Assembly (NCBI GenBank): GCA_030018005.1
Contig: JASEGT010000021.1
Span: forward strand, 1 to 32,181
DNA length: 32,181 nt
Source of the DNA: Actinomycetota bacterium
Lineage (GTDB): Bacteria > Actinomycetota > Aquicultoria > Aquicultorales > Aquicultoraceae
Reading direction: 5' to 3'
Below the pieces are notes generated by a model. That model did no database searches, was not told the DNA's origin, and saw only the letters and a program-made list of their open reading frames with translations. Below are positions 10,222 to 14,818 of this stretch, in pieces (the stretch's first letter is position 1; each line of letters opens with the position of its first letter). A program made the translations under genes and the position numbers.

Positions 10222-10812
10222 ATGCACACGGTGGATACAGAACGAAAGGTTTTCGTCATCTCTGGTCCATCAGGAGTCGGAAAGGGGACCTTGACCCAAG
10301 AACTTCTTAGGCGGGTCCCCTTGATTACTCATTCGATTTCAGCGACGACGAGAAAGCCGCGGCCGGGCGAGGAGAATGGACGCGATTATTTTTTTCTCTC
10401 GGAAGATGAGTTCAAAAGGCATATCGAGAGCGGTGATTTCATCGAGTGGGCGCTTGTCCATGAAAACTATTACGGGACTCTGAAGTCGGTAATCGAGCGG
10501 GTGCTCGCAGGCGGCCGGGACGTGATACTCGAAATCGATGTGCAGGGCGCTTTGCAGGTTCGAGATGCGATGCCTGAAGCGGTTCTCATCTTCATACAGC
10601 CGCCCTCCATGGATGAACTCGCCGGCCGCCTCGAACTCAGAAATACGGAGACTGAAGAGGAATTGAACAGGCGACTGAAGAACGCCGAAGGCGAGATGGT
10701 TCTTGCTAATAAATACGATTATGTGGTAATAAATGATGAGATAGATAGAGCCGTTACAGAGTTAGAAGAGATTGTGCGGGAAGCAAAGCACAAGAAGTTA
10801 GGAGATATATAG
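10222..10812 (+). CDS. gmk: Guanylate kinase
   Basis: Gmk phosphorylates GMP to GDP with ATP in the cytosol. The 196-residue product has the P-loop GPSGVGKGT near residues 14-22, the GMP-binding segment STTRKPRPGEENGRDYFF (with one substitution, SATTRKPRPGE), and FIEWALVHENYYGT, EIDVQGA and FIQPPS motifs in family order. The frame is open further upstream through mihF, but family alignment and the gene spacing favour ATG 10222, four bases after the mihF stop; GTG 10231 is a possible alternative. No strong ribosome binding site is visible, so translation may be coupled to mihF. The stop codon overlaps the rpoZ start by one base. Confidence 0.95.
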   Translation: MHTVDTERKVFVISGPSGVGKGTLTQELLRRVPLITHSISATTRKPRPGEENGRDYFFLSEDEFKRHIESGDFIEWALVHENYYGTLKSVIERVLAGGRDVILEIDVQGALQVRDAMPEAVLIFIQPPSMDELAGRLELRNTETEEELNRRLKNAEGEMVLANKYDYVVINDEIDRAVTELEEIVREAKHKKLGDI

Positions 10813-11054
10813 TGAGCAGAGTTCCGATAGACAAGCTGTTAGGAAAAGTCGACAGCAGATTTACTCTGGTTATCGAGGCAGCCAAGAGAGCGAGACAAAT
10901 TAACGATTATTTCAACGCCGTAAAGCGCCACGATATGATTCGCGTGCGGCCGCCGCAAATAGATGCGATGTCTAGCAAGCCGTTGACCATCGCGTTTCAG
11001 GAGATTGCCGAAGATAAAGTAACTTACGAGCGTACGGTCGAAGGTATTAAATAA
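10812..11054 (+). CDS. rpoZ: RNA polymerase omega subunit
   Basis: Omega assists folding and assembly of the beta' subunit of RNA polymerase and contributes to ppGpp response in some bacteria. The 80-residue product has the family core SRFTLVIEAAKRARQIND near residues 15-32, followed by the KPLTIAFQEIAEDKV segment. Translation begins at a GTG that shares one base with the gmk stop (TAGTG), with TTAGGAGA about five bases upstream. The 3' end overlaps the unrelated minus-strand gene at 11047 by eight bases, tail to tail, and no terminator separates them. gmk-rpoZ adjacency is widely conserved. Confidence 0.94.
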   Translation: MSRVPIDKLLGKVDSRFTLVIEAAKRARQINDYFNAVKRHDMIRVRPPQIDAMSSKPLTIAFQEIAEDKVTYERTVEGIK

Positions 11055-11763
11055 TATCCAGGCCGCCGATGCGCAATTCCTCCACGAGAACGAGCGACCA
11101 GCCGATGAGGCCCGGGTCGACCCGGTCTAGTCCGGTAGCGACATGATTTCCGAGATGGATGAGGGCGGTTTCACCGGCCGTCCAGTTTTGAGAGATATCC
11201 AACCACACTTCGATGATGTCCTCGGAGAACATCGCCTTCTTAGAGGTGAGTATATCGAGCTTGTCTATCAGGTGGAAGAGTTCATTGCCTAACTCGAGCA
11301 AGCTGTAAGTCCAGCGAACAGCGACTAGTCTCGGAACATAGTTCGAGATCGCTCGCTCGATGAAACAATACCTGTCCTTAAACCATTGGTCCGTGTGAAT
11401 CCTGTTTTCCGCCGTCATTACCTCGTAGTTGTCGACGGCTTCTTCGCCATCTAGTAGGACGCTGTTTATCTCTCTAGCCTGGTTTCCAAAGATATCCGCG
11501 TGGAATTTAAGGCTTTGCGCGAGCTCCCAAATCGTAATGACTCGTTGCGCTACGCTGGGCATTTTATCTGTAATGTTGAATTGTTCGATCTGCTTGAGTA
11601 GCGAGAGCGTGAGGTCGTGCATGGATGCTAAATGCACGGCAGCCCGCACGGCAAATACTTTATTGATATTCGCCAGCTCGAGCTTTTCGACTATTACCGT
11701 GCTTAGACTCCCATGGTAGTCATAATTATTAGAACGATCGATGATTGAATATACTGTACTCAT
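11047..11763 (-). CDS. Unrecognised protein, convergent with rpoZ
   Basis: I do not recognise this protein. From the ATG at 11763 it is 238 residues, beginning MSTVYSIIDRSNN; an in-frame GTG at 11823 would add 20 residues (beginning SYLPHQYSKHRR). Neither start has a clear ribosome binding site. The sequence is rich in leucine, isoleucine, aspartate and glutamate with regular hydrophobic spacing, suggesting an all-helical soluble protein. It has no signal peptide, membrane helix, P-loop, zinc-finger cysteine pattern or repeat that I can see. A conspicuous segment is NWTAGETALIHLGNH near the C-terminus. It is the only minus-strand gene in the first 30 kb and breaks the usual rpoZ-coaBC junction. 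The long open frame with ordinary codons argues that it is real. Confidence 0.6.
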   Translation of the reverse strand: MSTVYSIIDRSNNYDYHGSLSTVIVEKLELANINKVFAVRAAVHLASMHDLTLSLLKQIEQFNITDKMPSVAQRVITIWELAQSLKFHADIFGNQAREINSVLLDGEEAVDNYEVMTAENRIHTDQWFKDRYCFIERAISNYVPRLVAVRWTYSLLELGNELFHLIDKLDILTSKKAMFSEDIIEVWLDISQNWTAGETALIHLGNHVATGLDRVDPGLIGWSLVLVEELRIGGLDII

Positions 11764-11828: not shown

Positions 11829-11857
11829 TAGAAAATAGCAGCTAAAGCTGGTATAAT
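11829..11857 (+). promoter_or_regulatory. Candidate coaBC promoter
   Basis: TAGAAA (four of six -35 matches) is followed after 17 bases by a perfect TATAAT at 11852-11857. It reads towards coaBC and would give a leader of about 100 bases. Its position right beside the start of the divergent minus-strand gene suggests the two share a regulatory region. Confidence 0.55.
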
Positions 11858-11913: not shown

Positions 11914-11961
11914 GTGAAATAGTATGCGCGCTGCGGACGATTGTCGACACGGAGTGAGATG

Positions 11962-13182
11962 ATGGAGACGATTTTGCAGGATAAGAGAATAGTCCTTGGC
12001 GTAACGGGCGGGATAGCCGCTTATAAGGCGGCCGATTTGGCCAGCAAGCTCACGCAGGCCGGTGCAGTCGTCAAGACCATAATGAGCAAGAATGCCACGC
12101 ATTTCGTAGGCCCGTTAACATTTAAAGCGCTGACAGGGCAGCCGGTCGTTACCGACCTATTTGCCTCCGGCTCGCATGGTTTTATTGAGCATGTCTCGCT
12201 CGCGTACGAGGCCGACCTGGTGGTCGTGGCGCCCGCAACCGCGAACATTCTGGCCAAAGCCGCGCATGGAATCGCTGATGACGCGCTCTCTACAACACTG
12301 TTGGCCGCAGAGGGGCCTATTGTGATGGTGCCGGCGATGAACAACCATATGTGGGATAACCCGGCTACGCAAGCTAATCTGCTGACCCTTCAGGAGCGTG
12401 GCGTAAACATACTCGCGCCGGAGGTGGGGAGGCTGGCTTGCGGGAGCGAGGAGGCTATGGGGCGCTTTCCCAAAACCGAGACCGTGCTCGAGTACCTCAA
12501 AGACCTTTTCAACGCGGCCGACATTCTTGCCGGTAAAACAATAATAGTAACGGCGGGCGGCACTCATGAGCCGATTGACGCAGTTCGCTTTATAGGCAAC
12601 CGCTCATCCGGCAAAATGGGATATGCCATAGCCGGGCGGGCAAAAGCCTGCGGTGCTGAGGTTATTTTAATCAGCGGCCCGACCGGTCTCCGCGCGCCGG
12701 CAGGAGTGCGACTCATCGAGGTCGAGACGGCGCTTGAGATGCGCCGGGCCGTCATCGACAATCTTCCGGGTTCGGCTGCGCTCATCATGGCCGCCGCCGT
12801 AGCCGACTTTAGGGTAGCGGGCAAGGTTAACGGGAAGATTAAGAAAGAGAGGATGGATGATGGTATCGCTTTAGAGCTAAACCCCGATATCCTCCAGGAA
12901 GTGGCGGGGCATAAAGACCGCGGCCTTATCATCGGCTTTGCCGCCGAGTCAGAGAACATCATCGCCCACGCGATTTTGAAGTTGGAGAAGAAGAAGCTGG
13001 ACCTCATCGTCGCCAACGACATCGGGCGCTCAGACGCCGGTTTCGGCAGCGATTATAACCTAGCGGTCCTCATAGACCACGACGGTCCGCAGGGTGAGCT
13101 TGCGATGTATCGCAAGTCCGATTTGGCTTCGGAGATAATTAATTGGCTGGCGCGAGCCCTCGGCAATAACCTTTGTTCTTGA
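11962..13182 (+). CDS. coaBC: Bifunctional phosphopantothenoylcysteine decarboxylase / phosphopantothenate-cysteine ligase
   Basis: CoaBC performs two coenzyme A steps: the C-terminal CoaB ligates cysteine to 4'-phosphopantothenate, and the N-terminal FMN-dependent CoaC decarboxylates the product. The flavoprotein domain (about residues 10-185) shows VLGVTGGIAAYKA, the active-site histidine in IEHVSLAYEADLVVVAPAT, the substrate-clamp PAMNNHMW, and the catalytic cysteine region LACGSEEAMGR. The ligase domain begins near residue 190 with IIVTAGGTHEPIDAVRFIGN and SSGKMGYAIA, and ends with GFAAES and the KKLDLIVAND segment. I chose ATG 11962 because GGAG lies seven bases upstream; ATG 11959 and TTG 11941 are in frame. 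coaBC beside gmk-rpoZ and metK is the usual actinobacterial arrangement. Confidence 0.95.
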   Translation: METILQDKRIVLGVTGGIAAYKAADLASKLTQAGAVVKTIMSKNATHFVGPLTFKALTGQPVVTDLFASGSHGFIEHVSLAYEADLVVVAPATANILAKAAHGIADDALSTTLLAAEGPIVMVPAMNNHMWDNPATQANLLTLQERGVNILAPEVGRLACGSEEAMGRFPKTETVLEYLKDLFNAADILAGKTIIVTAGGTHEPIDAVRFIGNRSSGKMGYAIAGRAKACGAEVILISGPTGLRAPAGVRLIEVETALEMRRAVIDNLPGSAALIMAAAVADFRVAGKVNGKIKKERMDDGIALELNPDILQEVAGHKDRGLIIGFAAESENIIAHAILKLEKKKLDLIVANDIGRSDAGFGSDYNLAVLIDHDGPQGELAMYRKSDLASEIINWLARALGNNLCS

Positions 13183-13268: not shown

Positions 13269-13417
13269 CTCTTATCCAGAGAGGTGGAGGGACTGGCCCT
13301 ATGAAGCCTCGGCAACCTGGAAACAAGCGGGTTATACCCAATCGTTTCTAAGGTGCCAATTCCGGCGGAATCTAAAGGTAGTATCTTTTGATTAAAAGGT
13401 TACTGAAAGATGAGAGA
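13269..13417 (+). promoter_or_regulatory. SAM-I (S-box) riboswitch
   Basis: The S-box consensus is recognisable throughout. The P1 stem is CTCTTATC (13269-13276) with GATGAGAG (13409-13416). Between them lie AGAGGTGGAGGGACTGGCCC, GAAGCCTCGGCAACC, AAGGTGCCAATTCC and GGCGGAA-type segments in the correct order. The kink-turn and SAM-binding core bases look intact. Together with the terminator at 13437 this indicates that high S-adenosylmethionine halts transcription before metK, so the enzyme is controlled by its own product. Confidence 0.95.
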
Positions 13418-13585: not shown

Positions 13586-14818
13586 GTGTCAAAGAAACGC
13601 TATTTAATCACATCGGAGTCGGTGACAGAGGGTCATCCCGATAAAATCGCCGACCAGATCTCCGATGCGATTCTCGATGCCATCTACACCGATGACCCGA
13701 TGGCGCGAGTCGCGGTGGAAACACTGGTCACGACCGGGCTCGTCGTCGTCGCAGGAGAAGTTACGACGTGCACCTATGTCGACATCCCGAGCATCGTCAG
13801 GCAGACGATAAAGGGAGTGGGCTATACGAGAGCTAAGTTCGGTTTTGACTGCGATACCTGCGGTATTATAACGAGCATCGACCCCCAGTCGCCCGATATC
13901 GCCCAGGGTGTCGACTGCGCATACGAGAACCGGGCGCTCGGCGTCGACGAGGAACTCGACCGGCAGGGAGCCGGCGACCAGGGGATGATGTTTGGCTACG
14001 CTTGCGACGAGACGCCGGAGCTGATGCCGCTTCCGATACTGCTGGCCCATAAATTGGCTGCACGGTTGTCCGAAGTAAGAAAAGACGCGACGTTACCGTT
14101 TCTGCGCCCGGACGGGAAGACGCAGGTAACGGTCGTCTATGAAGACGGGAAGCCGGTTGCGGTCGATACGATCGTCATATCGACGCAGCATGCGCCGGGC
14201 ATCGATATAGAAAGCGACCTTCGTCCAGCGCTAATAGAGCACGTGATTAAACCAATCGTTCCCGCTAATTTCATCGATTATGATAAAGTGAAAATATTGG
14301 TCAACCCGACCGGTAGGTTTGAGATAGGCGGCCCGCAGGGCGATACCGGTTTGACGGGGCGAAAGATAATCGTCGACACCTACGGTGGTCTTGGACGTCA
14401 TGGCGGCGGGGCGTTCTCAGGAAAAGACCCGACCAAGGTCGACCGTTCAGCGGCGTATGCGGCGCGTTATGTAGCTAAGAATATCGTAGCCGCCGGCCTC
14501 GCCGAGCGCTGTGAAGTGCAGCTGGCCTATGCCATCGGAGTGTCGCGCCCGGTATCCATCATGGTGGAGACCTTCGGTACCGAGCAGGTACCGGTCGAGA
14601 AAATTGAGGAACTCGTAGAGAAGCATTTCGACTTGCGCCCGGCCGCTATCATTCGCGACCTCGACTTGCGCAGGCCGATATTTAAGAAGACCGCGGCATA
14701 CGGCCATTTCGGTCGAGACGATGCCGATTTTACCTGGGAGAAGACGGACAAGGCCGCGGCGTTGCGCGCCGCCGCCGGTTTGACGGCTCTCAAATCCGAT
14801 GCGGTGACATTGAGTTAA
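13586..14818 (+). CDS. metK: S-adenosylmethionine synthetase
   Basis: MetK makes S-adenosylmethionine from methionine and ATP in the cytosol. The 410-residue product is full length with all signature segments: the ATP and methionine site [17 protein letters not shown] near residues 10-26, [12 protein letters not shown] near 130-141 (the family hexapeptide), and the phosphate-binding [16 protein letters not shown] near 273-288. The start is GTG 13586 with GGGAGG eight bases upstream. A SAM-I riboswitch and terminator precede it, so expression should fall when the product is abundant. A strong intrinsic terminator follows the gene, making metK effectively monocistronic despite its position inside a conserved gene order. 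Confidence 0.98.

Follow-up and report, generated by a model that had tools for sequence, protein, structure and literature searches.

Gene pairs that converge and overlap at their ends form a general category of bacterial gene arrangement, and lineage-restricted (orphan) genes form another. The locus described here can be compared with both. It lies in a window of 32,181 nucleotides, the whole stretch of DNA that was analysed (contig JASEGT010000021.1 of an Actinomycetota bacterium of the family Aquicultoraceae), in which a minus-strand gene separates rpoZ from coaBC. As in convergent overlapping pairs, the stop codons of this gene and of rpoZ overlap tail to tail, although the overlap spans eight bases only and the pair is known here from sequence. 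As with orphan genes, the gene has been seen in one genus and its paralogue in one family, but its rate of evolution inside the genus is below that of the adjoining rpoZ and coaBC. The features of the junction are the following:

10222..10812, plus strand: gmk, guanylate kinase (PF00625, E 1.4e-52)
10812..11054, plus strand: rpoZ, RNA polymerase omega subunit (PF01192, E 2.1e-16)
11047..11054, no strand assigned: the gene and rpoZ overlap tail to tail at their stops over 8 bases, with the same geometry in each of the 4 genus genomes
11047..11763, minus strand: genus-specific protein, predicted helical, 238 amino acids, 4 of 4 genus genomes, 96-99% amino acid identity, dN/dS 0.034-0.077
11959..13182, plus strand: coaBC (PF04127, PF02441)

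The minus-strand open reading frame at 11047-11763 begins with ATG and comprises 238 codons followed by a stop. Its length by itself proves nothing, because the window holds four further minus-strand reading frames, of 266-384 amino acids, lying across longer plus-strand ones; the case against a chance frame comes from comparing the four species of the genus, the group of Candidatus Aquicultor primus (n=4 genomes). All four genomes carry the gene at an identical junction, with 91-95% identity at the DNA level, no stop and no indel, and the third codon position takes 71-85% of the pairwise substitutions. Conservation is lower upstream of the ATG (81-86%). Pairwise dN/dS values, calculated by the Nei-Gojobori method, are 0.083-0.171 for rpoZ, where changes are few, and 0.140-0.197 for coaBC, both above the range for the gene. 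The true frame gives a mean of 0.054; four of the other five frames give 1.9-6.3, and the frame control carries the caveat that one antisense frame, in which the wobble positions are aligned, is likewise low at 0.126. On the grounds of four-genome conservation, junction position, dN/dS and frame comparison, 11047-11763 is accepted with near certainty as a genuine protein-coding gene. A search of its own genome to E values of up to 10 found no additional copy beyond this gene and its paralogue.

The gene is convergent with rpoZ and divergent from coaBC. The distance from rpoZ to coaBC is 907-908 nt in the four genus genomes, with the gene lying within it, and the gene's stop codon is TGA in one of them (G002) and TAA in the others because the overlapping rpoZ has ATC in the former and ATT in the other three. 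The comparison of junctions took in 30 of 36 class genomes; five of the rest had a coaBC match only and one had no match. In every one of the 26 genomes examined from elsewhere in the class, coaBC comes after rpoZ in the same orientation, at about -5 to 246 nt, with no match to the gene at the junction. The 195-nt region common to the gene and coaBC has a GC content of 39%, and 2.4% of the window's 195-nt stretches are as low. The initial annotation is thus upheld in its account of the locus: it had described a minus-strand gene of ~240 residues, here found to be under purifying selection, inserted where coaBC normally follows rpoZ directly, convergent with rpoZ with an eight-base 3′ overlap, and sharing an AT-rich upstream region with coaBC. 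Further along the window, 3′ of coaBC, a SAM riboswitch is found at 13269-13416 (RF00162, 82.4 bits), ahead of an open reading frame at 13586-14818 that we take to be metK.

Searches of Pfam, NCBIfam and PADLOC with the 238-residue protein returned no family at E<=1, and PHROGs gave three weak matches (best E 0.032). Against the sequences of solved structures, profile A1 yielded a single row at E 0.35, nothing usable. A literature search, small in extent and judged by titles and the start of abstracts, found no publication on this gene. Single-sequence searches with the protein picked up, at E values of 3e-5 to 4e-3 for the best match in each genome, weak similarity to a 265-residue protein present in its own genome and in family relatives. 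This protein and the cluster to which it belongs are found at the following places, Candidatus Aquicultor secundus being of another genus of the same family:

G000:C54:9673-10470: paralogue, about 265 residues, unnamed in the libraries searched
L040:6001-6792, in Candidatus Aquicultor secundus: paralogue, likewise
L040:2412-6795 (also L041, L042 and L043): T-box leader, HcyBio, NIL-4Fe4S protein, methionine-synthase-like gene and the predicted helical 265-residue protein, in one cluster

Profile-profile comparison (hhalign) of the gene with this protein gave a full-length alignment with a probability of 97.8 and an E value of 1e-12 over 220 columns, at 22-28% identity. Over 12 aligned sequences, four of the gene and eight of ten paralogues (two near-identical genus paralogues were omitted from alignments A1 and A2 and from the tree), 34 columns are invariant, and GET(..)ALxHxGxH and GxxGWSL, near the C terminus, are invariant in all 12. 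The two proteins differ in length, mostly by a stretch missing after residue 95, and in the gene's other locus and its restriction to one genus. Judged by these alignments, the product of 11047-11763 is a very divergent paralogue of a family-restricted protein, and a paralogue rather than an orthologue because it is located between rpoZ and coaBC and not downstream of homocysteine/methionine-synthase-like genes. Of the initial description of the protein as unrecognised, one part stands, since the profile search it proposed finds no recognised family and no profile library names either protein; the other has to give way to the single paralogue family within its bacterial family. Homologues, whose complete absence together with a lack of minus-strand transcription had been named as what would refute the observation, exist both in the four genus genomes and as this paralogue.

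Ten of the 11 family genomes contain the paralogue. When 396 genomes of the phylum were searched by profile, the matches were confined to those ten, and none of the 385 from outside the family gave one. A scan of genome contigs with the paralogue alignment found six loci, all in family genomes; as its patterns were special to the paralogue, remote relatives may have escaped it. In the eleventh family genome (G004), the paralogue is present as a C-terminal fragment alone (GFLGWSLATLEN, L031:3-266) near the start of a contig, a sign of either decay or the end of the assembly; the reading frame that follows presumably encodes a DNA ligase, which it resembles. Within the genus, the paralogue has a dN/dS of 0.012-0.035, a constraint stronger than that on the gene at the rpoZ junction.

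The setting of the paralogue is consistent across the family. In all nine family genomes where the methionine-synthase-like gene was found nearby (G001 and G004 yielded none), the paralogue lies 3′ of it in the same orientation, at a gap of roughly 270-530 nt. Upstream in the Ca. A. secundus cluster is the HcyBio protein (PF01837) together with the NIL-4Fe4S protein, and relatives of both are found in the other paralogue loci that extend that far. Twelve loci were scanned for a T-box leader, and one precedes the cluster in four of them, namely those whose sequence extends beyond HcyBio on its upstream side. The methionine-synthase-like gene also occurs in class genomes from other families, but no paralogue lies beside it in the loci examined there, and the reading frames around it gave no significant paralogue match, the best outside the family being about E 3. 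The methionine-synthase-like gene itself matches no Pfam family at 0.001 and no solved structure, and one NCBIfam model matched it weakly (E 0.014); in its HxC motif it resembles MesB as described in PMC7857596, and may be called MesB-like by that resemblance. Near the paralogue locus of one relative, pieces of a group II intron (RF02001, RF01998) are present at L043:10556-10867.

Structure prediction agrees with the initial description of the protein as helical. The AlphaFold2 model of the 238-residue protein, built from 7 sequences, is all-helical but poor (mean pLDDT 51); that of the paralogue is all-helical and of moderate quality (mean pLDDT 66, pTM 0.67), with residues 221-253, the site of the Glu/His motif, under 50. 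Foldseek found no match to either model at E<=0.001. Its top rows for the paralogue model were alpha pore-forming toxins (best E 0.037, TM-score 0.22, rmsd 22.2), generic long-helix matches that offer no basis for function. The best VIA-align match of the paralogue model, to BF1032 (3nrh_B; Z 9.5, rmsd 3.2, 139 aligned), lies within the range that the tool itself rates as common for helical bundles and is of no help. The 238-residue protein has a net charge of -13, and its highest hydropathy over 19 residues, 1.25, argues against a membrane helix. From hydropathy and these low-confidence models, the protein would be soluble and helical. Glu or His makes up 9 of the 34 columns invariant between the two groups (binomial p 0.007, in a post hoc test on an alignment partly gapped there). 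Conserved Glu and His recall metal-binding helical bundles of the hemerythrin or ferritin type, although the C-terminal part of the paralogue model is under pLDDT 50; a metal site is a guess from these residues, worth testing and no more.

Altogether, starting from a gene whose existence, conservation, place and paralogy are established, the reading that we tentatively prefer, while rating it somewhat short of probable, is that of a genuine gene, an old and since diverged copy that became fixed in a single genus and is kept there by strong purifying selection; its soluble, acidic and, by prediction, all-helical product of 238 residues would most likely act in trans as a protein. It could be a helical bundle with an accessory or adaptor role, binding either a partner protein or, by way of the conserved Glu and His, a metal or cofactor. 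The overlap with rpoZ would then be a by-product of compact packing. An accessory or metal-binding role, and the biochemical function as a whole, are guesses, and the neighbourhood of the paralogue need not reveal the function of the copy at the rpoZ junction.

There are rival accounts of the gene's origin. The gene could have arisen in the stem of the genus by duplication of the methionine-cluster paralogue that the genus itself carries, and have changed very fast before it froze. The other accounts are an earlier duplication with loss in the remaining lineages, and acquisition from a relative that has not been sampled. Its presence in this genus only would fit, and the AU test does not reject its grouping with the genus's paralogue (p 0.136). 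However, the free tree does not recover that grouping, the identity of the gene to the own-genus copy (22%) is not above that to the others (25-28%), and about 10 changes per site separate the two groups, against about 0.5 at most on branches within the paralogues. A copy made in the genus stem, with a rapid burst of change after it, is a real possibility that nonetheless falls short of being the probable course of events, and the older duplication and the transfer stay candidates beside it.

A second alternative concerns transcription, for which the candidate sites are these:

11829..11857, plus strand: promoter-like site before coaBC, TAGAAA-17-TATAAT, a TG preceding the second hexamer, called at the equivalent position in all 4 genus genomes; a consensus match only
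11918-11889, minus strand: second candidate site, 9 of 12, called in the window
11919..11947, minus strand: weak, speculative candidate promoter for the gene, TCGACA-17-TACTAT, 9 of 12, in 3 of 4 genus genomes (not G001)

No Shine-Dalgarno sequence is seen before the ATG of the minus-strand gene. Terminator-like sites around the junction are absent from three of the four genus genomes; the fourth (G002) has three, all inside the gene and not common to the genus. Among the seven family relatives without the gene, the scan covered the four with long spacers (L051, L052, L053 and L054), leaving out the shorter-spacer G004, G006 and G009, and a terminator-like hairpin follows rpoZ in all four. The gene thus occupies what seems to be the site of rpoZ transcript termination in these four relatives. 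Because the genus shares no terminator-like site at the rpoZ junction, in contrast to the hairpins of the relatives, convergent transcripts that overlap there are plausible. The initial annotation had raised possible antisense interference with the gmk-rpoZ transcript; on such a view the locus would be a cis antisense regulator, in which the minus-strand transcript enters rpoZ and gmk and dampens or ends their transcript, the protein being secondary. The tail-to-tail geometry kept throughout the genus and the lack of a shared terminator-like site would agree with it, yet the coding overlap is only 8 bases long and selection acts on the amino acids, unlike what a pure RNA role would entail, so that we regard this proposal as unlikely.

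A broader proposal joins the two loci. In Aquicultoraceae the unnamed helical family would belong to folate-independent (MesB-like) methionine synthesis, for instance as an accessory handling metal or corrinoid, and the second, far-diverged copy, having settled next to rpoZ, coaBC and the SAM-riboswitch unit at the position of the rpoZ terminator in relatives, would couple the transcription of the region to its own; we consider this combination very unlikely. Also very unlikely is a recently acquired mobile or phage-derived gene, for although its absence from the junction in other genera and its lack of any known family might suggest one, that idea is weakened by the lack of relatives in viral contigs (queries P0001 and A1) and in plasmids or phages (query P0001), by the lack of a PADLOC family, by a GC content of 0.49 and a GC3 of 0.61 that are like those of its neighbours, and by its presence under purifying selection in all four genus genomes.

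Returning to the preferred reading of a diverged paralogue acting in trans, the gene by itself is an ordinary lineage-restricted gene, a lead and no new kind of system. It nevertheless interrupts a gene order that all the other class genomes examined retain; because it both breaks that order and evolves more slowly than the adjoining RNA polymerase subunit, it is probably of importance to these uncultured bacteria. A further lead that it gives is an unnamed protein family encoded next to methionine-synthesis genes, one open to biochemical tests.
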